Shown one piece after another: positions 7,728 through 58,981 of a DNA stretch of 64,000 nt (the stretch's first letter is position 1; each line of letters begins with the position of its first letter). The DNA comes from Bacteroidota bacterium (lineage in GTDB: Bacteria; Bacteroidota; Bacteroidia; Palsa-965). The translations under genes and the position numbers were made by a program. The stretch spans positions 1-64,000 of the forward strand of contig JABDCB010000001.1 of NCBI GenBank assembly GCA_013288325.1. The letters run 5' to 3'. Under the pieces are notes generated by a model. The model was not told the DNA's origin. It ran no database searches and saw only the letters and a list, made by a program, of their open reading frames with translations.

Positions 7728-10697
7728 ATGAAACATACCTACCGTGTATTATCAATTTTTGCTATTTTTCTTTCAATACATTCTTACTCACAGGAATTCT
7801 GGGGTATGACCTCCAGCGGAGGAGCTTATGGGCTTGGTACCCTATTTAAAGCAGATACAGGATGTACCAATACTCAAGTCAAATATTCCTTTGTATCCAA
7901 TATCCCGGGATCAACACCTGATGGTGACTTAGTACAAGCCAGTAATGGTAAATTTTATGGTATGACCTCCAGTGGAGGTTCCAATTCTACCGGAATATTA
8001 TTTGAATATGACCCAACGAGTGGAGTCTACACGAAAAAATTTGAGTTCAATGGGGCCAATGGAGCAAATCCCAACGGTTCACTAGTTCAAGGAGCGAATG
8101 GGAAATTGTATGGTATGACTCCTTTGGGGGGGGCAAATAACATGGGTGTTCTTTTTTCTTATGACCCTGTAACATCACTCTACAATAGACTGATTAATTT
8201 TTCGGGTTCTGCTAATGGAGCTAATCCAATGGGGTCTTTGATACAAGCATCAACAGGAAAGTTGTATGGGATGACTTCGGCCGGAGGGGCTAATGGATTG
8301 GGAATACTTTTTTCATATGACCCGGCAACAGGAATCTTCATCGATAAAATTGATTTTGCGGGAGTAGCAAATGGGTCGGTACCCAATGGCTCATTAGTAC
8401 AAGCATTTAACGGCAAATTGTATGGATTAACTTCGACGGGTGGAATAAAAAATGACGGAGTACTTTTCTCTTACGATACGACTGCGGGCACATTGACCAA
8501 AATGATAGATTTTGACAGTATACCCAAAGGTTGCAACCCCAATGGAGCATTGGTAGAAATCAGTCATGGTAAACTTTTTGGAACCACGCTGAATGGTGGG
8601 GCACTAGGAAACGGAATTGTTTTCTCGTATGTTATAAGTACTGGAATTTTTACGGATGTAACAGATCTGAATGCTAGTACCCAAGGTGGAAATCCTTCCG
8701 GATCACTTGTACTTGCGCCGAATGGTAAGTTTTATGGTTTAACATCGGCAGGTGGAGCTAATGGATTTGGTACACTTTTCCAACTGGATACTACATCGCT
8801 CACCCTTGTAGACAAAGTGGATCTGGCCGGAATATCCAATGGCCAATATCCCAAGGGATCTCTTATCTATGCTTTGGATGGAAAATTGTACGGAATGGCA
8901 AGCAGTGGAGGGCTCAATAACAGCGGCGTTCTCTTTCAGTTCGATCCCGGTTCAGGAACATATACCGATAAAGTTGATCTGGAAACGGCAACAAATGGAG
9001 CTGTTCCAACAGGGAGTGTTATAATGGCAAGCAATGGGAAGCTGTATGGTATGACAACCAGTGGAGGAACCGGAGGAACGGGAGTTCTGTTTGAGTATGA
9101 TACCGCATTGGCAACCTGTACAGCTAAAGTACAATTCACCGGAATGAATGGAGTTAGCCCTAATGGATCTTTAATCCAGGCCAGTAATGGTAAAATATAT
9201 GGATTGACAACCGCCGGCGGAATTTCCAGTCTTGGTGTTTTATTTGAATACGACCCTTCAACAAATATCTGTGTAAAGAAATTTGATTTTGATGGAGCCG
9301 CCAATGGAGCCGCTCCTTTTGGCTCACTTGTGCAGGCGAATAATGGATTGCTTTATGGAATGTGTTCTGCTGGAGGAGCAAATAGTGCTGGCGTTATTTT
9401 CTCATATGATCCTACATCGGGAACACTGACTAAGACAATTGATTTTGATCCGGCTCTCAACGGATCCACTCCATATGGATCGCTTATCCAGACAAATACA
9501 GGAACCTTATATGGGTTAACATCGGCCGGAGGGCTGAATGGCACGGGAATTCTTTTCAGTTATTCAATAGCTTCGGCTACCTGCAATAAAATGATTGACT
9601 TTACCGGTACAACCAATGGGACTAATCCTTATGGATCACTGATAGAATCTCCTTCCGGAAAGTTGTATGGAGCTACATCCGGCGGAGGCTCGAATGGACA
9701 AGGAGTAATTTTTGAGTACGACACAGTTTCGGCTACACTTACGAATATTTTTTCGATGAATCCAATGCCGGATGGCGATTTTCCACAAGGATCTTTGACG
9801 ATAGCAGGCAACAAATTTTATTTAACGGCAGATTATGGTGGGATTAATAATGTAGGAGCTTTGATGCAATATGACCCAACACCCAACACTGCGATTGATA
9901 AAACGGATTTCTCCCGAACCACTACGGGTGCGGATCCTTATGGAGATTTACTCTATCTCTGTAACCCTGTTACCATTACTAGCCAATCTGTTGATACCGC
10001 CAAATGTCCTGGCTCTTCATGCATTCTTTGGGTAAATACAACCGGTAAATATGTTACATATCAATGGTATAAAAACGGAACACTCATAGTTGGGGCCAAC
10101 AATGCCAATTATGTGATTCCTTCCGCCGGCCCATCTGATTCGGCTACTTATTATTGCGCTGTAAGCAACCCTTGTGGAAATTTGAATACAGTAAACACAA
10201 AAATTTCTCTTTATCCTCAACCAGCTATTCCAACCATCAGTTCAGGAGGATCTACTCTTACTTCCAGTGCTGCAACGGGTAATCAATGGTATCTGAACGG
10301 AACCATTATTGGAGGAGCAACAGCTCAGAGCTATACAACAACACAGAATGGAAATTATACCGTTACAGCAACAAATGCTAATGGTTGTTCGGCAACATCA
10401 GCTCCGTTCAATATGACGAATACGGGGATTATGGAAAAGTCTGGAGGGTTGACTGTGGATATGTATCCCAATCCGGCATCTTCTGTTTTGAATCTCACAT
10501 TTCAAACAGATCGCGAACTGCAGATTGATATGACAATAATTGATCTTTTAGGAAATACCATTTTGAGCGAAAAGGTGTACCTGACAAAATCTGCTAACAA
10601 TACTACGCTGGATGTGAGCTCGCTAAGCGCAGGGGTATATGTTCTAAAATTAAATAGTGTGTCAGGCACAACCCTTATAAAATTCTTTAAGCAATAA
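7728..10697 (+). CDS. GloVer-type (TIGR03803-like) tandem-repeat secreted protein with T9SS type A C-terminal domain
   Basis: Many about 55-aa repeats of type GSLVQANNGKLYGMTSAGGANGxGVLFSYDP; C-terminal YPNPASSVLNLTF...GVYVLKLNS...LIKFFKQ. Confidence 0.9.
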   Translation: MKHTYRVLSIFAIFLSIHSYSQEFWGMTSSGGAYGLGTLFKADTGCTNTQVKYSFVSNIPGSTPDGDLVQASNGKFYGMTSSGGSNSTGILFEYDPTSGVYTKKFEFNGANGANPNGSLVQGANGKLYGMTPLGGANNMGVLFSYDPVTSLYNRLINFSGSANGANPMGSLIQASTGKLYGMTSAGGANGLGILFSYDPATGIFIDKIDFAGVANGSVPNGSLVQAFNGKLYGLTSTGGIKNDGVLFSYDTTAGTLTKMIDFDSIPKGCNPNGALVEISHGKLFGTTLNGGALGNGIVFSYVISTGIFTDVTDLNASTQGGNPSGSLVLAPNGKFYGLTSAGGANGFGTLFQLDTTSLTLVDKVDLAGISNGQYPKGSLIYALDGKLYGMASSGGLNNSGVLFQFDPGSGTYTDKVDLETATNGAVPTGSVIMASNGKLYGMTTSGGTGGTGVLFEYDTALATCTAKVQFTGMNGVSPNGSLIQASNGKIYGLTTAGGISSLGVLFEYDPSTNICVKKFDFDGAANGAAPFGSLVQANNGLLYGMCSAGGANSAGVIFSYDPTSGTLTKTIDFDPALNGSTPYGSLIQTNTGTLYGLTSAGGLNGTGILFSYSIASATCNKMIDFTGTTNGTNPYGSLIESPSGKLYGATSGGGSNGQGVIFEYDTVSATLTNIFSMNPMPDGDFPQGSLTIAGNKFYLTADYGGINNVGALMQYDPTPNTAIDKTDFSRTTTGADPYGDLLYLCNPVTITSQSVDTAKCPGSSCILWVNTTGKYVTYQWYKNGTLIVGANNANYVIPSAGPSDSATYYCAVSNPCGNLNTVNTKISLYPQPAIPTISSGGSTLTSSAATGNQWYLNGTIIGGATAQSYTTTQNGNYTVTATNANGCSATSAPFNMTNTGIMEKSGGLTVDMYPNPASSVLNLTFQTDRELQIDMTIIDLLGNTILSEKVYLTKSANNTTLDVSSLSAGVYVLKLNSVSGTTLIKFFKQ

Positions 10698-10699
10698 CA

Positions 10700-11170
10700 T
10701 CAGGAAAGTAATTTCTGACGAAGCATAAAGTCGAGCTGTTCATTGGCTTGAATAAGTTTAGTAGTAAGCTCTTTGTTTGCTTCCCGCAGCGCATATACTT
10801 CATATGCGTTTTCAATCGACATTTTTAACTCCTGTTCATCCCAGGGTTTTGTAATATATCGATATACCTGTCCTTTGTTAATTGCGCTAATTACCGCTTG
10901 TATATCTGCATAGCCGGTAAGCAGAATCCGAATCGGGTCGGGGTATTCTCCAATAATAGACTCAAGAAATTCAACACCGGTAACACCGGGCATACGCTGG
11001 TCGGTAAGGATCACATGAAAGGTTTGTTCTTTCATTAAAGCTTTTCCTTCTTCTGCAGACACAGCTGTGAAAATATTGAAATCTCTTCTGAAAAGAGCTT
11101 TGAATGCAACCAGATTGTTGGATTCATCGTCGACGTAAAGAACATTGATTTTCTTTTCCATGATTAGCAA
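10700..11170 (-). CDS. Receiver-only response regulator
   Basis: REC domain YVDDESNNLVAFK...ILTDQRMPGVTG...ITKPWDEQEL, no output domain. Confidence 0.9.
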   Translation of the reverse strand: MLIMEKKINVLYVDDESNNLVAFKALFRRDFNIFTAVSAEEGKALMKEQTFHVILTDQRMPGVTGVEFLESIIGEYPDPIRILLTGYADIQAVISAINKGQVYRYITKPWDEQELKMSIENAYEVYALREANKELTTKLIQANEQLDFMLRQKLLS

Positions 11171-11203
11171 ATTAAAAAATGTTTATGCCGTGCATTGTAT
11201 TTT

Positions 11204-13354
11204 CTAAAATTTTTCCGTTTGTTGGGTAATCGGAATGGATATAACAAACTCACTGCCTTTGCCAACTTCGGACAACACCTTAATTTTTCCATGATGCTTT
11301 TCTATAATGGAATGGGTAATAGATAAACCTAGCCCCATTCCCTGACCTACAGCCTTTGTGGAGAAAAAAGGTTCGAATATTCGTGGCAATACTTCTTCTT
11401 TTATCCCTATGCCATCATCCTTTATGCTCACATATACATTTGATGCATCCGAGGAGGTACAGATGGTGATATGCCCTTTTTCCGAATCCTTTTTTTCGGC
11501 AATCGCCTGAATGGCATTGTTAAGAATATTCATAAATACCTGGTTGATTTTACCGGGGTAGCATTCAACAGGAGGAAGTTGACTGAATTTTTTCTCAACC
11601 AGCACCTTATCTTTCAAAATGGTATTCAGAAGAATGAGTGTGGCATTTAAGCCTTCATGGAGATCTGTTGTTTTTAATGTGTCTTCATCAAGACGGGAGA
11701 ACACTTTCAGCCCTTTGATAATTTCTGATGTACGTGTAGCTCCGTCATCTATTCCATGCAGGAGATCATCAATTTCCTTGATGGAATAATCCATATCCAG
11801 GTCTTTTTTCAGTTTTTGAGCTGCCGCAATTTTTTCCGCCACTTGATGCCCGTCTTCAATAAGGGCATATTGTTGATAAAGTTGTTTTAGTTCATCCAGT
11901 GTACGTTTTAAGGACTTGATGTTTGACTTAACAAAATTAATCGGATTATTAATTTCATGGGCAATACCTGCTGTAAGCTGACCAAGGGAGGCCATCTTTT
12001 CGGAATCCACGAGTTGACTTTGTGTTTCTTTAAGATTTGTGAAAGTTTCACTCAATTCCTTATTTGCAGCTTCAAGTTCTGTAGTACGTTCTTGAACTTT
12101 TATTTCTAGAATTACATTTTGTTCTTTAACAATACGCTCATTTTCCGTCAGGGCTTCCAGAGCCTTTGTCTGACTTTCTTCTTTTTCCTTTTTAAGAATA
12201 TTAATCCTGTCGGCCAAACCAAAAGAAATTAGTACTACTTCGAATGCAGAACCTGTTTGCATCGTATACCTTGTAATGTTGTTATATGGAAAGATTCCAA
12301 AATCTTTCATAATATAGATAACAACCCCAACGAGGAAAAAGGTCCAGGCAATAAGAAAAAATTTAGCAGGACGGTACCCTTTTCTATAAATAACAATACC
12401 CATTGTTAACATGTAAGTAGAGACCAGCATGGCCGTTATTTCCATGAGAGCATAACTGGCTGTATAAATGTTAAAAATGGCCAGAAGGATGCTGATAGAA
12501 TAAATTATATAGAAGACTACAGCTATCCTGTCCAGCTTGGGAGTGAACTCTGAAGTATGCAGGAATACTCTTAGAAAGGCCAGACCGGCAATCCCTACGA
12601 GAGAAGGAAAGAAAAATCCTCCGTGTATGGCCATCCATGGAGAGTGAGGCCAGAGATATTGAAAAGGGAACCCCTGCAGGCTTGTCTGGGTTAAGAGAAT
12701 AATGACAATATAAACTACGTAATAAATGTAGCTTTTGTCTCGAACAGTAAAATAAATAAAAAGATTATAGAGCAGCATAACGAGCATAATGCCGAAGTAA
12801 ATTCCGGATAGTATATGTTTCTGGCTAAGAAAATTGAGTATGGAATCTTCAGTGCCTAACACAAGCGGAACCTGGATTTGCTCCGTGCTTTTTATTCTCA
12901 TCAGATAGGTAACTTCTTTTCCAGGAAGAATACTTAGCCGAAAAAGATAATCAGGGATTTGATACAGGCGAATTGCAAAATCCTGATATTCCCCCATTTT
13001 TTGAACGGTGTATGTACCGTCTGTTTTGGGAAAATAAAGAGCGACTTCGTCCATATTTGGCTGCTCCAGCATCAAAAGTAGTTGCCCGGAAGAGCTTTCA
13101 TTCCGGATGTGGATTTTTAACCAAAAGGCAGAAGAGGAAAGGCCGAGATTTGGAACTTTTTGGGTACTTGATTTGTACTGATCGGAAGCGAGTGCTTGTT
13201 CAAAGGAAAGCGCTCCTGCTTTATCCTCCAGAATTTCTATGCTGCCTCCGATATCCAGACGGGAAGTATTGTCGGAAAAAAAAACCGTCTCGGTTGCAGA
13301 TGCAACCGAGAGAAACGAAAGAAAGAAAAACATGGAAACTAAATATCGACTCAT
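11204..13354 (-). CDS. 7TMR-DISM sensor histidine kinase
   Basis: DISM extracellular region, about 7 TM segments, HisKA GIAHEINNPINFVKSN and HATPase motifs; start trimmed to MSRYLVSMFFFL (ORF track extends to 13432). Confidence 0.9.
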   Translation of the reverse strand: MSRYLVSMFFFLSFLSVASATETVFFSDNTSRLDIGGSIEILEDKAGALSFEQALASDQYKSSTQKVPNLGLSSSAFWLKIHIRNESSSGQLLLMLEQPNMDEVALYFPKTDGTYTVQKMGEYQDFAIRLYQIPDYLFRLSILPGKEVTYLMRIKSTEQIQVPLVLGTEDSILNFLSQKHILSGIYFGIMLVMLLYNLFIYFTVRDKSYIYYVVYIVIILLTQTSLQGFPFQYLWPHSPWMAIHGGFFFPSLVGIAGLAFLRVFLHTSEFTPKLDRIAVVFYIIYSISILLAIFNIYTASYALMEITAMLVSTYMLTMGIVIYRKGYRPAKFFLIAWTFFLVGVVIYIMKDFGIFPYNNITRYTMQTGSAFEVVLISFGLADRINILKKEKEESQTKALEALTENERIVKEQNVILEIKVQERTTELEAANKELSETFTNLKETQSQLVDSEKMASLGQLTAGIAHEINNPINFVKSNIKSLKRTLDELKQLYQQYALIEDGHQVAEKIAAAQKLKKDLDMDYSIKEIDDLLHGIDDGATRTSEIIKGLKVFSRLDEDTLKTTDLHEGLNATLILLNTILKDKVLVEKKFSQLPPVECYPGKINQVFMNILNNAIQAIAEKKDSEKGHITICTSSDASNVYVSIKDDGIGIKEEVLPRIFEPFFSTKAVGQGMGLGLSITHSIIEKHHGKIKVLSEVGKGSEFVISIPITQQTEKF

Positions 13355-13370
13355 AGGGCGTATTATTCTG

Positions 13371-14093
13371 CTAACGTTTGAATACCATTGACTCAACAAG
13401 AACGTGTTTGGCAACAGGAACAACCAAATCATACTCCACTTCCTGGTTGCTTTTTGGCCCTTTTTCGAGTGCTATACAACGGGGAGTCTTTCTAAGCTCC
13501 AGCATGCGTTCTCTGTCGTAATCAGTACTGGTAGCTAAGGTTTCTGCATTCATAATACCCACAACTTTAGCCAGATATTCTTCCGTAGGATAGATGAAAT
13601 CTCCATTGTTGCCAAGACTCCGGTCTATTATAAATCCAACACGTGTGAACATTGGCAGTGAGTATTCAGCACAAATACCAAGTAAAGTGCGAAAATGTAA
13701 TTGATTAATGATGGATATAGCAGCGCGTACAAGTAAAATACTAATGCCCTGTCCGGCTACTTCTTTTGAGTTCCAGAGCCCGCATAATTCCCCTGCGCCT
13801 CCGTCTATCCTATGTTTAACAACCAAATCATAAACCCGATGATCCATTTTGCCTACTGCCGTTTCCACAGGCAGGGGATGAAGTCCGTCGGCTACTTGTA
13901 CGCGTATTCCACCTACTAGTTTTCCATTTAGTTCCGCCACAACACCATAAGTATATGGATTTTCTATCCAATCTTTGTTATAAGAAGTTATATTAAGTAT
14001 ACCGTAGTCTTCCAGCACCTTCCGATGTCCTTCTATGTATTCAAGGCTTACGGAATGTTCCTCCAGAGGGTAAAATGATCTGATCTTTAACAT
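13371..14093 (-). CDS. GNAT-like / autoinducer-synthase-fold N-acyltransferase (putative)
   Basis: VVAELNGKLVGGIRVQV...GELCGLWNSKEVAGQGISILLVRAAISI...FTRVGF acyltransferase-like pattern. Confidence 0.6.
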   Translation of the reverse strand: MLKIRSFYPLEEHSVSLEYIEGHRKVLEDYGILNITSYNKDWIENPYTYGVVAELNGKLVGGIRVQVADGLHPLPVETAVGKMDHRVYDLVVKHRIDGGAGELCGLWNSKEVAGQGISILLVRAAISIINQLHFRTLLGICAEYSLPMFTRVGFIIDRSLGNNGDFIYPTEEYLAKVVGIMNAETLATSTDYDRERMLELRKTPRCIALEKGPKSNQEVEYDLVVPVAKHVLVESMVFKR

Positions 14094-14096
14094 AGT

Positions 14097-16418
14097 TTAC
14101 TCGAGGTAAAGCACGTCGTCCACAGGGCGCCGAAGCGCCCTAACATCTATTTGATCTGCAACATGAATTCGAAACAGGAAAATCTCCCCTAACTCGGGAG
14201 ACAATGAAAATAAACGAATAAAACGCGATCGTAAGTCCTGTAATTCTTCCTTCATAGCAGGTGTAAATCCAGCTCCATTACCCTGGATGAGGCGGTGAAA
14301 GAAAAAAGTGCAGGCAGAAACGGGGTGAACAGAAAGTCCGCTTTTATTTGCCTGAAGCCAAGCTTTTTGTAATGCCCGTCCACCATTATAAAAATTAAAA
14401 GGACTGTAGGCCGGCATTGTAACAAGACCAACAGCAGAGGCGGAAGCGATTGCCTTACGCCCCATTTTTTCAAAAGCCTGTCCGCCTTTCCATTCATTCA
14501 GATGATGTATAACACCCGGAGCTGTTGACATCCGTAAGCCGGCAAGTTCAGAAGGAGTTAACTCAATTGTAGCAAGATCTACACCATCTTTTGTTTTTGC
14601 TGCTTCCTCGGGTGTCCATCGTATCTCACTTACAAAATCACGATGATCTTCTTCACTCATTAAGCGGATGCGATCCACAGCCCCGACAATATCTGCTACC
14701 TCATCAAGCTCCTTAGAGGAGCTAATGATTTTCAATTCGGCTCCGTGAATAGTCTGAGAGGCTCTTTTAATTTCTTCAAGCAAGTGAGGAGCCAGATTTT
14801 GTCGCTGTCCATATTTCCGGTTAGTGCCCCGGCTAAAAATTGTTCCGGAAAGCATGTCACAATCGTGAGATTCTAATATACCGGTGGAAGGAACCTGGTT
14901 TTTTGAATAAAAACGAAAAACAGAAACGAGCTTACTGGAAGAAGGCAGAAGACAATCAGTACTCACTTCCAGATTCAATTCGTGTGCCTTTAGAATAAGA
15001 TTTTCGGTTGCTGCCCCTAGTCCTATATGTGAGGCCGTATTTTGAAAGTCGAGTAACGACACAGAGCGAATACGATCATGAAACAAATAAAGGCTTTTGT
15101 TGGTGTACAACCATTTCCAAGGCTGACAATTGGCACCAGTAGGAGCAGCAATAGCTGCCGAGATAAGGGTAACCAATTGGGTTTTGTTGAGTTCAAGTTG
15201 TTGATCGTCAGGAACAATATTTTGTTTTTGTATAGTGTCGTGCATTTCCTTTTGGGTCAGCACCGTTTCTCCGGTAGTTTCGGGTTGAGCAACTGCAGAA
15301 GATGGTTTATCGCAGATCAGCTCTTCTAAATCCACAAAATAACGTCCGGATTCATGAAACTGATCCAGGCTAATTCTTCTGCATACATCCGCAGCCAGCG
15401 CAGCTCCCAGAACAACGGATGAACCAAGTTGAGGCCATGTGGTAAGGGTTTGGCCTATTTCTATCATAGAAGCCTTTAGCTTAGATGAAATAGTCTCTGC
15501 TCCCAACATGGGAAGGATATAAGGTACTTTTTCTTCATTGTTCAGATTTTTAATACGACTGATATCCAGGTGGTCAATCATTCCATGCAGCAAAGGGCGA
15601 TCGGGTTCCAGATCAAATCGTTCTACGTCAAGTGTACCGCGGTCATTCATATCCATTACAACCGGAATTCGCATGGCTCTTGCTTTTATTCTGCACTGTA
15701 TTTTGATATCCAGTCCGTCACACTCTTCAACAAGTATATCAAGTTTACCACCTTTTTCGAAAAAGTCATCCATGTTTTCCTCTGTGAGACCGTCGGTATA
15801 ACACACCGTTTTCAGATATGGATCCATTTCTGCAATTTCTCTTGCTACTACAATGGCTTTCGAAATGCCAATATTGTGTAAGCCGGTCTGAATCCGGTTC
15901 ATATTGGTAAGTTCCAACAGATCGAAATCGGCCAGCCGGATTTCCCCGAAACTACGTTCCAATGCCATGGCCATGGCAATCGTTTTGCCAACGGAGAGAC
16001 CGACCACCCCGATTTTTAGTTTGCCAAGACGGTCGCGCTCCTGAACTGTAATTTTATATTGATTCCGGTTTGTTCTTACCTCAATAAATTCACTTTCCCC
16101 GAGTACATGTACAAGGCGTGAAGACCAGGGATAGTATACCCAAGCACCGTATTCATCGGGATTAAAACCTTTCAGATGGTGATCTGCCAATTCATTCAAT
16201 TGGTCGGTATTCAGCTTTAGCTTGGGGTTTCTTGATTTGAGCAGTTCACGAAGCTGTGAGTAAATTTCATTGCTTATCTGGAGGTGAGGAACATCTTTTA
16301 TTAATTTGTCCAGCTCCTTCCTGTCGGCATCCTGCTGCAGATAAAAAACGCGGGGATGATAAACAGTGTCAGAAGAAGAAGCTTTTCTTTCTAACGACGC
16401 AAACAGGGTTTCCGACAT
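14097..16418 (-). CDS. ThiF/E1-like adenylating domain fused to nitroreductase-like domain (Rv1355c/MoeY-type)
   Basis: N-terminal GVVGLSVGKTIAMAMALERSFGEIRLADFDLLELTNMNR; central AAIAAPTGANCQPWKW and SRGTNRKYGQRQ nitroreductase-like segments. Confidence 0.8.
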   Translation of the reverse strand: MSETLFASLERKASSSDTVYHPRVFYLQQDADRKELDKLIKDVPHLQISNEIYSQLRELLKSRNPKLKLNTDQLNELADHHLKGFNPDEYGAWVYYPWSSRLVHVLGESEFIEVRTNRNQYKITVQERDRLGKLKIGVVGLSVGKTIAMAMALERSFGEIRLADFDLLELTNMNRIQTGLHNIGISKAIVVAREIAEMDPYLKTVCYTDGLTEENMDDFFEKGGKLDILVEECDGLDIKIQCRIKARAMRIPVVMDMNDRGTLDVERFDLEPDRPLLHGMIDHLDISRIKNLNNEEKVPYILPMLGAETISSKLKASMIEIGQTLTTWPQLGSSVVLGAALAADVCRRISLDQFHESGRYFVDLEELICDKPSSAVAQPETTGETVLTQKEMHDTIQKQNIVPDDQQLELNKTQLVTLISAAIAAPTGANCQPWKWLYTNKSLYLFHDRIRSVSLLDFQNTASHIGLGAATENLILKAHELNLEVSTDCLLPSSSKLVSVFRFYSKNQVPSTGILESHDCDMLSGTIFSRGTNRKYGQRQNLAPHLLEEIKRASQTIHGAELKIISSSKELDEVADIVGAVDRIRLMSEEDHRDFVSEIRWTPEEAAKTKDGVDLATIELTPSELAGLRMSTAPGVIHHLNEWKGGQAFEKMGRKAIASASAVGLVTMPAYSPFNFYNGGRALQKAWLQANKSGLSVHPVSACTFFFHRLIQGNGAGFTPAMKEELQDLRSRFIRLFSLSPELGEIFLFRIHVADQIDVRALRRPVDDVLYLE

Positions 16419-16492
16419 AAAGAATATGTATTGATTTGAGTATGTGAGTTGGTTCTTGTTTCATTGCCATCAGCAAGGAAACAAGCAAGGAT

Positions 16493-17578
16493 TTAAGCCT
16501 GATTTGGAATAACGATCTTGAATTTCGTTCCTTGTCCAATGACCGAACTGACTTCAATTTCGCCACCTATTTTTTCAACGGCCTCTTTGGCAATATAGAG
16601 TCCTAGTCCCGATCCTGGTTTTTCTTGTGTGGCCCGATAAAACATATCGAAAATTTTATCGAGGTGTTCCGTTTCAATTCCAATGCCGCTATCTTCAATA
16701 GAAAGAGTGGCATGCTCATGCCCTACTTTTAAATCAATAGAAACAAACTGGTCGCTACGGTTTTTATTCTGGTATTTGATAGCATTTAACAGAAGGTTGT
16801 TGAGGATAACCTGGAAGCGGAATTCGTCAGTGCTAAAAATTTCGGCCTGTTCAATATTGTATTTGAGTTCGATTTTGTTTTTATCCTGGAAATAATCAAA
16901 GCTAGCCCATGTTTCACGTATGATCTTGTCAAAATCAAGTATACTAGGGCGTATCTCGTACTTCACATTCTGATAGTAATTGATAATATTACCGACAAAT
17001 ACATCAAGCCGGTCAATGCTTTTTTCAATCATTCCCAGAAAATCTTCAGGATGGTTGTGGGGTTGGGTTTTCGAAAAATTTATGATGCCTTTAATTGACA
17101 TAAGGGGTGCCCTTAAATCGTGTGAAGCACTGTATACAAATTTTTCAAGCTCGTTATTGGTTTTCTGAAGTTGGATGTTTCGTTCCTTCAGCAATCGGCG
17201 AGTACAAGCCATTTCAAATGCATTGCGAATAATAACCCTGAGCTCTTGCTCATCCCAGGGCTTATTTAAATAACAATATATTTTTCCTTTATTGATGGCA
17301 TCAACCACATCCTTCATATCGGAATATCCGGTAATTAATATTTTTATTAAATCAGGATACTCTCCCACAATAGATTCCAGAAAATCCACTCCGTTAATGC
17401 CTGGCATTCTCTGATCGGTGATGATGATGTCGATGGCTTCTTTTTGGAGCACAAGCAGACCTGCTTCGGCAGATTGAGCCACAAAAACCTTAGCATCCCT
17501 TCGAAATGCAGCTTTGAAAGCTGTCAATTGTCCAGGGTCGTCATCCACGTACAGAATTTGAGGGTTCTGATCAAGCAT
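16493..17578 (-). CDS. Hybrid receiver-histidine kinase
   Basis: REC (ITDQRMPGINGVDFLESIVGEYPD), HisKA YSASHDLRAPLMSIKG, HATPase GSGLGLYIAKEAVEK. Confidence 0.92.
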   Translation of the reverse strand: MLDQNPQILYVDDDPGQLTAFKAAFRRDAKVFVAQSAEAGLLVLQKEAIDIIITDQRMPGINGVDFLESIVGEYPDLIKILITGYSDMKDVVDAINKGKIYCYLNKPWDEQELRVIIRNAFEMACTRRLLKERNIQLQKTNNELEKFVYSASHDLRAPLMSIKGIINFSKTQPHNHPEDFLGMIEKSIDRLDVFVGNIINYYQNVKYEIRPSILDFDKIIRETWASFDYFQDKNKIELKYNIEQAEIFSTDEFRFQVILNNLLLNAIKYQNKNRSDQFVSIDLKVGHEHATLSIEDSGIGIETEHLDKIFDMFYRATQEKPGSGLGLYIAKEAVEKIGGEIEVSSVIGQGTKFKIVIPNQA

Positions 17579-55087: not shown

Positions 55088-58000
55088 TTAGCGAATGAGA
55101 TTACAGTGTCCGGAATAGATATGCCGGTTTCCAAAAACATCTTTTAGACTTACCTTCCACACATACGTATCAATCTGTGCAATATTAGCTCCTCCGTTTG
55201 CACGTCCATCCCATCCTTGTCCCCAGGTATGTGTTTCAAACATCAGATTGCCCCATCTGTCAAACATCAGGAGGTCATAATTATTCGGATCAATACCCAC
55301 ACCGAAGGGCATCCATTCATCATTTTTTCCATCTCCGTTTGGTGTGAATGTGTTGGGAGCATAGAAGGTGAAGATGGGTTGGATACAGATAGGGCCCGTA
55401 GTAGAATCCTTACAACCATCGGGCGCTGTTATAACCAGCTTCACCGTGAAACATCCTGTATCGGTATAGGAATGAATCGGATTTTGTAAGGAAGAGGTAG
55501 AATCGCTCGGATCACCGAATAACCACAACCAGCCTACTGCATTGGTGCTTTGATCGGTAAATGTAATGGTAGGATCTGTAATATTGGTCGGCTGGGGATT
55601 GTCGGTAAAGGCTGCATGAGGCACCGGTAGTGCATTGATAAAATTCGGGATCATATCGCTGCCTTTGCAGCCGTGTATGTCCGTTACATTATACGTTACA
55701 TTATACGTACCGGCCACGTAATAGCAATGTTTGGCCGAGTCGCAACCGGTAGCTGTGGTTCCATCACCGAATGACCAGGAGCCGGAAGCACAGGCAGGGT
55801 TTGAACTTCCAAAGAAGGTGGCGCATACGGGGGCACATACAACGGTATCTTTTGAAACAAATGTTACCACCGGTAAAGGGTATACGGTTACTGTTGCATA
55901 GTCCGAGTCGGTAGGCGTGCCGCAGTTATCGGCCACAATGACGGTGTAGGTGGTGGTTACTGTTGGAGATGCAACAGGGTTTTGGCTGTTTGCATTTGAA
56001 AGCCCGGTAGCCGGTATCCAGGTGTAGGTATAGGGGCCGCCATTGCCTCCGCTGCCAATAGCATGCAGGGTATCATTGGCTCCGGGGCAAATGGATTTGC
56101 CTCCGCTGGCAAGTACTTCCAGCGCGGGGTTTACAACCACTGTTTCCAAAGCCGGCTGAGCTATGCACCCATGAGAGTCTGTAACCGTTACAGTGTATGT
56201 GGTAGTTACCAGTGGGCATACAGTAGCAGAAGGTAAGGGAGTACCATTCAATGTCCATGAATAAGAATAAGCCGGGCTGCCTCCCGTGGCCGTAGAGGTT
56301 AATGTGGTGCATTGACCGATACAGATTTTGAGCGGAGGACCGGCACTCAACAGGAGTAACGGTGGCTGCACAATGGTAACAGAAACCTGATTGGTACAAT
56401 GGACAGAGTCGGTAACCGTACACACATAGGTGCCGGCAGATAAACCGGTGACACTGAGTGTTCCTTGTCCTGTTCCCGGTGCAGGTGTCCAGTTAAAGGT
56501 ATAAGGTTTAAATCCTCCGCTGGCTGAGTCTCTTGCTGTTCCGTCATTGCCACCGAAACAGCTAACGGGCGTGGAAGCCACAGTAACCATATTTACACCG
56601 GGAAGATTGGGAACCACATTTTTCATGGTGTCGGGGCAGCCATTCTGATCTTTGATAATGACGGTGTAATTTCCGGCCAGGATAGCATGAATCCCTTCCG
56701 TGGTATAAGCACCGGGAGTCCAGGTATATGTATAACCGGGAGTTCCTCCGCTTACGGTAACCGAATCTTTTCCATCTGCTTTGTTGCAATGTGCAGCCGT
56801 TGGAAACATATTCATCACCAAAGGAGTTGGCTGTGTAATGAGTGCGGTGTCGGTAGCGGTACATCCATGTGCGTCGGTTACGGTAGCGGTATACGTGCCG
56901 GCACATACATTACTGGCGCTTGCCGAAGTGCTTCCGTTGCTCCACAAATAAGTATAAGAAGCCGTTCCTCCGTTAGGTAAACCAATCAGCTGTCCGTTAC
57001 ATTTACCATTACAGGTAGCCGGAACACCGCTCGCTGTTATTGTAAGTATGGTAGGTTGAGTAATGGTTACCGGTGTGGTTACCGAACAACCTTTTGAATC
57101 GGTGGTGGTGCAATTGTAATTTCCGGCAGCAAGTCCTGTGGCGGTATTGCTGGTGCTGGCCGATCCTGTCCATACATACGTATAAGGCGCGGTGCCTCCG
57201 TTAGGAGTTATGGTAGCAGTTCCATCTGATAATCCGAAACAGCTCACATTCGTAGTGGAGGCATTTGCAGTAGGTGCGTTTGGTTGTCCAACAACGACGG
57301 TAGCCGAATCGGGACATGTTCCGGTAGCTCCGTTTACAACCAGGGTGTATGTGCCTCCATTCAGTCCGCTAGCATTCGTAGTTCCTTGTCCACCTGTTGG
57401 TGCCGGCGACCAGGTATAGGTAAAAGGTCCGGAGCCTCCGGTAACGGTAGCAGTAGCTGTTCCATCACCACCCGGTGAACAGGAAGCGGGAGTAGAGGTG
57501 ATGGTAACGGTAGGTGCTCCTGCAGGGGCGCTGAGTGTAACAGATCCGGAAGCGGTGCAACCGTTAGCAGTAGTTATATTGAGCGCATAGGTTCCTGCAT
57601 CTAATCCTGTTGCATTGGCAGTACCTTGTCCACCGCCCGGGGCGGGGCTCCATACGTAGGTAATGGGAAGGTTGCCTCCGGTAACCGTAGCTGTTGCTGT
57701 TCCATCATGACCTGGCTTACAGGTGGGATTGGTAGAGGTAAATGTGACGGTAGGGACAGGATAAAATGCGATGGTCGTATCAATTACATACGTACATCCG
57801 GGACCTTGTGTAACAGTAACCTGATAGGTGCCATCGGCGTTGACGGTAACACTTTGCCCGGTGGTGGAACCAACAATTCCTGCCGTGCCGGTAGGCATGG
57901 TGTTCCAGGCATAGGTGCCGCTTGTTCCTGCATCAGGAGCTGTAAGCGTAAGAGATCCTCCCAGACAAACTTCCGGAGTGGAAGCGATTACCTGGATGGG

Positions 58001-58981
58001 AGAACAGGATGCATCCACATAGGCATAACCCCAGTGACCGCCCGGTGTACAACCCGCAGCGCTAAAACGTACGGTAACATTATGCCCGATATAATTTTTG
58101 AGATTAAGACTATTGGATGTCCAGGGCAGATAATAAACAGAATTGCCTCGGGATTGAGAGGAAGAAACAGACATTCCTATAGGAATACCGGTACCAACCG
58201 ATTCAATATAATATTGTAAACAGGGAATGGGCTTGCCATTGCTATCCAGTACTTCGGCTCTGAAATATGGACATTGTGTGGTGGTGTGCCCGTTGCTGGT
58301 TTGTTCCAAAACAACGGCATAGTTATAGATAAGCATTGCATTGGCGGTGGTAACGGCAAAGGTTTGCTGAATACTTTCACCGGGTGCTCCTGAAGGCGAT
58401 GTAGTGCTGCAGCTGGATCCACTTTTCAGATTTGCATTTTCACCTCCCAGACGCAATGAATAGGTACCTCCGATAGCCAGCGGATCGAGCATAGGAAATG
58501 CACCATAAGGATCGTTGCCGGCGGCACTGTTTACGAGTGTAAACATAGAGCACGATGTTTCTGCGGAATTTACTCCAAGCGTATTGGGAAGGATGCCGGC
58601 GCTAAGTTGTGTTACGGCCGAATCGGAATTTGCATTATAACCGATATATCCGGTCCAGTTTGTATAGTCGCCTGTTTCAAATCCTAAATTGTTGCAGGAG
58701 AGACCCAGAACCGTATTGCTGTTTCCCGGATTAAAAGCATGATTTTTGGAGGGAATATGATAGCGTCTTTGTACGTATTGTAATTCCTGATCTTTAAGAT
58801 AAGCGCCTATCTCAGAGGCACTTAAACCTTCCTCTGCCGCCTCTTTATAATACGATGCAAGGTTAAATCCATTCAGTGTATCTCCTTTATAATAAACATA
58901 TTGACCCGGTACCTGAGCAAACCCGGTAATCACGGACCCAAAGAGAATAAAGAAGAGTTGTAAGTATTTTCTCATGCACAT
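55088..58981 (-). CDS. Large surface protein with SprB-type/Ig-like repeats, PKD domains and gliding-motility-associated C-terminal domain
   Basis: Repeats of type TNVSCFGLSDGTATITPNGGTAPYTYVWTG; PKD SWSFGDGTTATGC; C-terminal FYAPNTFTPNGDGKNDEWMPFG...WDGRANGG. Confidence 0.93.
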   Translation of the reverse strand: MCMRKYLQLFFILFGSVITGFAQVPGQYVYYKGDTLNGFNLASYYKEAAEEGLSASEIGAYLKDQELQYVQRRYHIPSKNHAFNPGNSNTVLGLSCNNLGFETGDYTNWTGYIGYNANSDSAVTQLSAGILPNTLGVNSAETSCSMFTLVNSAAGNDPYGAFPMLDPLAIGGTYSLRLGGENANLKSGSSCSTTSPSGAPGESIQQTFAVTTANAMLIYNYAVVLEQTSNGHTTTQCPYFRAEVLDSNGKPIPCLQYYIESVGTGIPIGMSVSSSQSRGNSVYYLPWTSNSLNLKNYIGHNVTVRFSAAGCTPGGHWGYAYVDASCSPIQVIASTPEVCLGGSLTLTAPDAGTSGTYAWNTMPTGTAGIVGSTTGQSVTVNADGTYQVTVTQGPGCTYVIDTTIAFYPVPTVTFTSTNPTCKPGHDGTATATVTGGNLPITYVWSPAPGGGQGTANATGLDAGTYALNITTANGCTASGSVTLSAPAGAPTVTITSTPASCSPGGDGTATATVTGGSGPFTYTWSPAPTGGQGTTNASGLNGGTYTLVVNGATGTCPDSATVVVGQPNAPTANASTTNVSCFGLSDGTATITPNGGTAPYTYVWTGSASTSNTATGLAAGNYNCTTTDSKGCSVTTPVTITQPTILTITASGVPATCNGKCNGQLIGLPNGGTASYTYLWSNGSTSASASNVCAGTYTATVTDAHGCTATDTALITQPTPLVMNMFPTAAHCNKADGKDSVTVSGGTPGYTYTWTPGAYTTEGIHAILAGNYTVIIKDQNGCPDTMKNVVPNLPGVNMVTVASTPVSCFGGNDGTARDSASGGFKPYTFNWTPAPGTGQGTLSVTGLSAGTYVCTVTDSVHCTNQVSVTIVQPPLLLLSAGPPLKICIGQCTTLTSTATGGSPAYSYSWTLNGTPLPSATVCPLVTTTYTVTVTDSHGCIAQPALETVVVNPALEVLASGGKSICPGANDTLHAIGSGGNGGPYTYTWIPATGLSNANSQNPVASPTVTTTYTVIVADNCGTPTDSDYATVTVYPLPVVTFVSKDTVVCAPVCATFFGSSNPACASGSWSFGDGTTATGCDSAKHCYYVAGTYNVTYNVTDIHGCKGSDMIPNFINALPVPHAAFTDNPQPTNITDPTITFTDQSTNAVGWLWLFGDPSDSTSSLQNPIHSYTDTGCFTVKLVITAPDGCKDSTTGPICIQPIFTFYAPNTFTPNGDGKNDEWMPFGVGIDPNNYDLLMFDRWGNLMFETHTWGQGWDGRANGGANIAQIDTYVWKVSLKDVFGNRHIYSGHCNLIR

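Follow-up and report, generated by a model that had tools for sequence, protein, structure and literature searches.

A conserved synthase-plus-sensor module of Bacteroidota joins TrzA/TrzS-like enzymes to a putative 7TM-DISM receptor kinase

In Actinobacteria, the fusion enzyme TrzS (Rv1355c) and the N-acyltransferase TrzA (Rv1356c) together yield N-acyl tryptazolones. L-tryptophan is first acylated by TrzA; the ThiF half of TrzS then cyclises the product with ATP, after which the flavin mononucleotide (FMN) half of TrzS desaturates it with O2 (PMC12856293). Oxazolones are destroyed by acid and by methanol (PMC12856293). Related oxazolones are the products of OxzAB and TyzACB (PMC12856293, PMC10404671), and the paper that defined TrzAS calls the role of acyl-oxazolones in bacteria a major unresolved question (PMC12856293). 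The phc operon of Ralstonia encodes the synthase PhcB, the kinase PhcS, the receiver-plus-kinase protein PhcR and the receiver-only protein PhcQ, and both PhcR and PhcQ lack a DNA-binding domain (PMC8578825; PMC6989110). Here we describe a five-gene cluster at positions 10700-17578 of a 64,000-nt stretch of a Bacteroidota bacterium of lineage Palsa-965 (the window; assembly GCA_013288325.1, contig JABDCB010000001.1, positions 1 to 64,000), in which a TrzA/TrzS-like pair stands beside a 7TM-DISM sensor histidine kinase and two receiver proteins. This synthase-plus-sensor module is conserved, and it is probably a signalling system that senses its own N-acyl amino acid derivative.

Like the window, the TrzA/TrzS loci of Mycobacterium and Rhodococcus encode a fusion of ThiF with an FMN-dependent oxidase, of the same synthase family, beside an N-acyltransferase (PMC12856293); the Actinobacterial loci examined differ in having neither a receptor kinase nor receivers. 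TyzACB, OxzAB and the NasY N-acyl tyrosine clusters likewise combine an acyltransferase, ThiF and a nitroreductase-type oxidase (PMC10404671, PMC12479983), but these belong to other subfamilies and the papers describe no dedicated sensor module. With the Phc systems of Ralstonia and Cupriavidus the window shares a kinase, a receiver-kinase and a receiver-only protein next to a synthase, a likeness of layout: PhcB is an S-adenosylmethionine (SAM) methyltransferase, whereas the window has TrzA/TrzS, and methyltransferases occur only in some relatives of the module, whose expected product the Phc methyl ester signal resembles. Because its synthase is not a PhcB-type methyltransferase, we do not file the module as a member of Phc; by analogy it would work like Phc rather than be Phc, and an autoinducer synthase–receptor module, laid out as PhcB–PhcS–PhcR–PhcQ around another synthase, is the best reading. 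A Rhizobium region (H39) considered as a Phc cluster proved not to be one. Lqs (LqsA/LqsS/LqsR) also places a synthase gene beside a sensor gene, and N-acyl-homoserine lactone (AHL) synthases have a fold in common with TrzA; in both, the synthase chemistry and the receptors differ from those of the window. We found no such synthase–receptor system described in the literature searched, which took in few subscription papers. The original prediction spoke of an uncharacterised system, and this fits the signalling half, which looks new, but not the enzyme chemistry, which is already known through TrzA/TrzS, OxzAB and TyzACB.

The enzyme pair and its operon-like setting

All five open reading frames lie on the minus strand, with the positions and domains that had been claimed for them (Pfam, NCBIfam). 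The gaps between them are 74, 3, 16 and 42 bp; the last had been given as 33 bp, a value obtained only with an upstream TTG as the start of the receiver-only gene. This spacing makes a single transcript plausible.

The TrzS-like protein (14097-16418, 773 aa) belongs to the Rv1355c family over its full length, matching NF005901 at residues 13-770 with 813 bits against a cut-off of 476, and Pfam and NCBIfam confirm the fusion of E1-like and nitroreductase-like domains that had been predicted. Its ThiF/E1-like half (15309-16361, residues ~20-370; PF00899, 2e-14), predicted to carry out ATP-dependent cyclisation, retains the aspartate of the adenylation motif, D234, which is conserved in 95 of 95 aligned sequences and was matched to D217 of M. 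smegmatis both by motif and via Mycolicibacterium TY66. The nitroreductase-superfamily oxidase half (14109-15221, residues ~400-770), the predicted desaturase, matches the Acg-type family NF047509 at 1e-33, with PF00881 slightly below its cut-off at 1e-4. Here R583, matched via TY66, aligns with R525 of that protein, by constant offset the putative equivalent of oxidase Arg540 near FMN, and the position is R or K in most aligned sequences. Identity to the Actinobacterial homologues is only ~33-35%, and sequence does not tell which amino acid and which chain length the window enzymes use.

On another account, the ThiF half would be an activating enzyme of E1 type that serves protein conjugation or anti-phage defence, and PADLOC E1-E2 profiles do match that half, and that half only, albeit weakly (best 1e-6). 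We find this account hardly credible: the family match spans both halves at 813 bits, and the recurrent neighbours include no E2, JAB or ubiquitin-like partner but an N-acyltransferase, kinases and receivers instead. A defence system was rejected on these grounds.

Starting 3 bp downstream of TrzS, the TrzA-like N-acyltransferase (13371-14093, 240 aa) is by sequence only a weak GNAT match (PF00583, E 4e-5), and it matches GNAT families alone, without a hit to the Autoind_synth Pfam of LuxI-type AHL synthases. Its AlphaFold model (pLDDT 91.8) most resembles the N-acyl amino acid synthase FeeM (Z 18.0, 2.4 Å over 172 residues), with the AHL synthases LasI (Z 16.5), RpaI (15.8) and BjaI (15.6) nearby. 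The proposed resemblance to autoinducer and N-acyl amino acid synthases is borne out by this fold, and the predicted structure is consistent with acyl transfer. General GNAT enzymes score Z 14-17, so the fold alone leaves the substrate unfixed. At one related locus (L209), a tandem pair of TrzA genes lies between TrzS and the DISM kinase.

Recurrence of the module across Bacteroidota

Several lines of evidence show that the association of these genes is not accidental. First, a TrzS-profile scan of named genomes returned 80 loci, nearly all from Bacteroidota. Among 57 loci whose two flanks both reach 4.5 kb, TrzA is present at 55, the DISM kinase at 56, the receiver–histidine kinase (REC-HK) at 53 and the receiver at 54, with all four at 50. 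The next most frequent neighbour family occurs at 9 of 90 loci, and the survey of TrzS-locus neighbourhoods found no other family recurring beside the module, exporters and immunity genes included. Gene order varies: TrzA may precede or follow TrzS, the receiver gene is often divergent, and a further small receiver is present at many loci. The link is therefore not one frozen operon.

Second, the independent NCBI profile NF005901 picked out ten genomes at E 1e-80 or better in a sample of the phylum, the window's own included, and the DISM kinase and REC-HK are present at every one of their loci. In a 390-genome sample of Bacteroidota a TrzA profile found 13 genomes, and the reverse test gave a matching result: the top 12 matches to a profile of the receptor sensor all fall in those 13 genomes, the thirteenth ranking 17. 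Both the TrzA and the receptor profiles were seeded from cluster members.

Third, 75 genomes in a 395-genome sample of the class Bacteroidia carry TrzA, roughly a fifth (70 of 339 good-quality genomes; 43 of 197 genera). The DISM receptor adjoins TrzA at 73 of the 74 assessable loci, one further locus (L247) having been set aside since it ends at a contig edge, and REC-HK and the receiver-only protein are usually adjacent too. The only exception is L269, whose TrzA is very divergent. Co-occurrence in the phylum and class samples excludes chance adjacency: the gene set recurs at almost every related Bacteroidota locus and so forms a cluster far beyond chance, and the near-universal co-occurrence of homologues runs counter to the possibility, raised with the original prediction, that they would seldom be found together. 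Close to the window the distribution of TrzA is patchy (three of four genomes of its genus, none of eight others in its family). Distances between the trees correlate, which agrees with co-inheritance and does not separate it from species history.

Outside Bacteroidota the neighbours differ. The kinase is missing from two Sorangium loci, as it is from the Actinobacterial loci examined. On a Rhodococcus plasmid (L106, 4892-9040), a GGDEF gene adjoins TrzA-like and Rv1355c-family genes, echoing the cyclic di-GMP genes found next to trzAS in M. tuberculosis (PMC12856293). A Streptomyces plasmid (L107, 6941-8739) carries adjacent ThiF and GNAT genes without the oxidase fusion, with a sensor and a response regulator ~5 kb further on.

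An exchangeable carboxyl-modifying enzyme

TrzA keeps its sensor but not always the same partner enzyme. Across the 75 class-sample loci, the partner is ThiF plus oxidase at 43 (contig ends truncate two of these), ThiF alone at 21, a class I SAM methyltransferase of ~255 aa at 7 and a Methyltransf_2-type O-methyltransferase at 1; one locus has ICMT, one has no such enzyme and one is of unknown type. A second ICMT locus, L174, came from the phylum sample; L237 and L244 are among the loci of methyltransferase type. A plausible common denominator is removal of the carboxylate charge: any of these enzymes could mask the free acid group in an N-acyl amino acid, by closing a ring or by forming a methyl ester. 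ICMT methylates the carboxylate of prenylated cysteine; the soluble methyltransferases, whose family matches are not specific, may likewise act on a carboxylate. At L240 the DISM kinase directly follows TrzA with no carboxyl-modifying enzyme, and the predicted signal there would be a plain N-acyl amino acid. Two loci of one genus, L224 with ThiF plus oxidase and L250 with an O-methyltransferase, have sister TrzA proteins and apparently record a recent enzyme swap.

The same variation bears on an idea that we judge very improbable, namely that the O2-dependent oxidase half of TrzS lets the module report on oxygen or oxidative stress. The TrzS oxidase does consume O2 (PMC12856293), and tyz genes have been tied to oxidative stress (PMC10404671), but the oxidase is missing from the 21 ThiF-only loci and from the methyltransferase types while the rest of the module is kept. 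Nor was a TrzS-type oxidase found in the remainder of six ThiF-only genomes or two ICMT genomes. With the oxidase dispensable in this way, an oxygen sensor was rejected.

The receptors, in turn, suggest a link to enzyme type. Mapped on the receptor-sensor tree, the cyclase/methyltransferase label takes 4 changes, below the mean (8.6) and the minimum (6) of 300 shuffles; on the TrzA tree it takes 6. All six MT1 receptors with usable sequence form one supported clade in a fasttree receptor tree, even though four families are represented and ThiF-type modules also occur in two of these (f60 and f85); the two ICMT receptors likewise group together. Receptor phylogeny tracks the swap of carboxyl-modifying enzyme in these trees, and we take the pattern as suggestive that it follows the choice of enzyme.

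The sensor, its relay partners and what they may sense

The putative receptor (11204-13354, in a PhcS-like position) has a DISMED2, 7TMR-DISM_7TM, HisKA and HATPase architecture, seen in Pfam (PF07696 1e-31, PF07695 3e-58, PF02518 1e-24) and in its predicted structure. The sensor model (pLDDT 90.6) has a seven-helix membrane part and a periplasmic domain that resembles that of RetS (Z 16.0). RetS and LadS kinases have the same DISMED2–7TM–kinase architecture; to our knowledge, and in this they differ from the window kinase, neither is encoded alongside a small-molecule synthase. The model does not reveal the ligand. Weak Foldseek similarity to Wntless (TM ~0.3) and GPCR-like Z scores of 12-14, which any helical bundle can attain, were set aside as grounds for a conclusion about it. 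Module-bearing genomes encode 1-3 DISM proteins each (PF07695; 10 genomes).

Phospho-relay residues are intact throughout. The HisKA histidine of the DISM kinase is present in 79 of 79 orthologues. The REC-HK protein (16493-17578; REC, HisKA and HATPase: PF00072 4e-20, PF00512 8e-7, PF02518 1e-25; PhcR-like layout) keeps its phospho-acceptor aspartate in 70 of 70 and its histidine in 68 of 70. The receiver Asp, Thr and Lys are invariant in both receiver types, in 72 of 72 cases for the receiver-only protein (10700-11161; PF00072 3e-19; PhcQ-like layout), and the two receivers of one locus are ~50% identical. The receiver-only protein also ends in a nearly invariant tail with consensus QLEFLLRQKLLS (QLDFMLRQKLLS in the window), whose N, F, R and Q residues are found in 72 of 72 sequences; the tail is a likely docking site. 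Pfam detects no DNA-binding domain in any of the five cluster proteins, in keeping with the earlier claim that neither response regulator has a DNA-binding output.

These features suggest a scheme in which TrzA would move a fatty acyl group from acyl-CoA onto an amino acid (an aromatic one, to judge by analogy, and perhaps tryptophan), the ThiF half of TrzS would activate the carboxylate with ATP and close it to an oxazolone, and the FMN half would desaturate this with O2 to an uncharged, lipid-like N-acyl oxazolone. The product would leave the cell or partition in the envelope and be detected by the 7TM-DISM kinase, from which phosphate would pass to the REC-HK receiver and the receiver-only protein, both acting through protein contact rather than DNA binding. 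We infer the exact product, its binding by the kinase, the direction of phosphotransfer, the output and any reporting of cell density. Of the originally proposed model, an acylated signal sensed by the kinase, synthesis is supported by the FeeM-like fold and the co-occurrence, and sensing only indirectly.

Several points weigh against self-sensing. The presumed ligands of RetS-type DISMED2 domains are carbohydrate-like molecules, not lipids. No kinase lies near TrzAS at the Mycobacterium and Rhodococcus loci examined, and a TrzA profile drawn from members of the cluster may under-sample distant TrzA proteins that have no receptor. On the receptor tree, relabelling within families equals the observed fit in 16 of 240 arrangements, which is why we call the receptor–enzyme evidence suggestive, not conclusive; L224 and L250, moreover, have sister receptors despite differing enzymes. 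Finally, tryptazolones remain mostly cell-bound in Mycobacterium and Rhodococcus, unexpected for an exported signal (PMC12856293).

These points leave some room for two-component genes that respond to another stimulus, such as envelope stress, sugars or redox, and whose part is simply to regulate how an N-acyl oxazolone is made, the compound itself acting as an antibiotic, a membrane lipid or a protectant. The RetS-like periplasmic domain favours such a stimulus, as do the links of oxazolones to stress responses and the antimicrobial activity of related N-acyl tyrosines (PMC12856293). We nevertheless consider this explanation unlikely: no cluster protein has a DNA-binding output with which to control the operon, receptor clades track the carboxyl-modifying enzyme, and no exporter, immunity or other family recurs beside the module.

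Sensing of the module's own product is thus the interpretation that we retain. The wider proposal, of a widespread and hitherto undescribed Bacteroidota quorum-sensing class built on carboxyl-masked N-acyl amino acids, with 7TM-DISM receptors co-evolving with head-group chemistry, seems to us slightly favoured; so, to the same modest degree, does its component that an exchangeable tailoring enzyme sets the masked form, oxazolone or methyl ester. If true, a group of 7TM-DISM kinases would gain ligands, and a phylum without such a synthase–receptor pair in the literature searched would gain a chemical signalling system. Interchange of cyclase and methyltransferase suggests modular diversification of the signal, with acyltransferase and relay kept constant. 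The pairing of the synthase with a receptor kinase in many Bacteroidota makes a signalling role of acyl-oxazolones directly testable, for instance in culturable Pedobacter or Mucilaginibacter; Pedobacter steynii DSM 19110 (L029) and Flavipsychrobacter stenotrophus (L057) are culturable strains that carry the module.

Individual loci show further variation. An unrelated gene of ~900 aa takes the place of REC-HK at L211, L228 and L242. At L018, L024, L029, L036 and many more, an extra single-domain receiver of ~133 aa follows REC-HK; neither the window nor its two relatives from the same genus showed it. Within the first codons of the window's DISM kinase lies a terminator-like hairpin, a perfect 10-bp stem with a T-run (13288-13311, minus strand), with no counterpart at the kinase start of other loci (0 of 83 in a stricter scan).

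Elsewhere in the window, a gene convergent with the cluster (7728-10697, plus strand) encodes a 989-aa protein with 14 GloVer-type repeats and a type IX secretion sorting tail, and a repeat-rich 1297-aa protein (55088-58981, minus strand) lies in a stretch whose GC of ~52% is matched nowhere else in the window.

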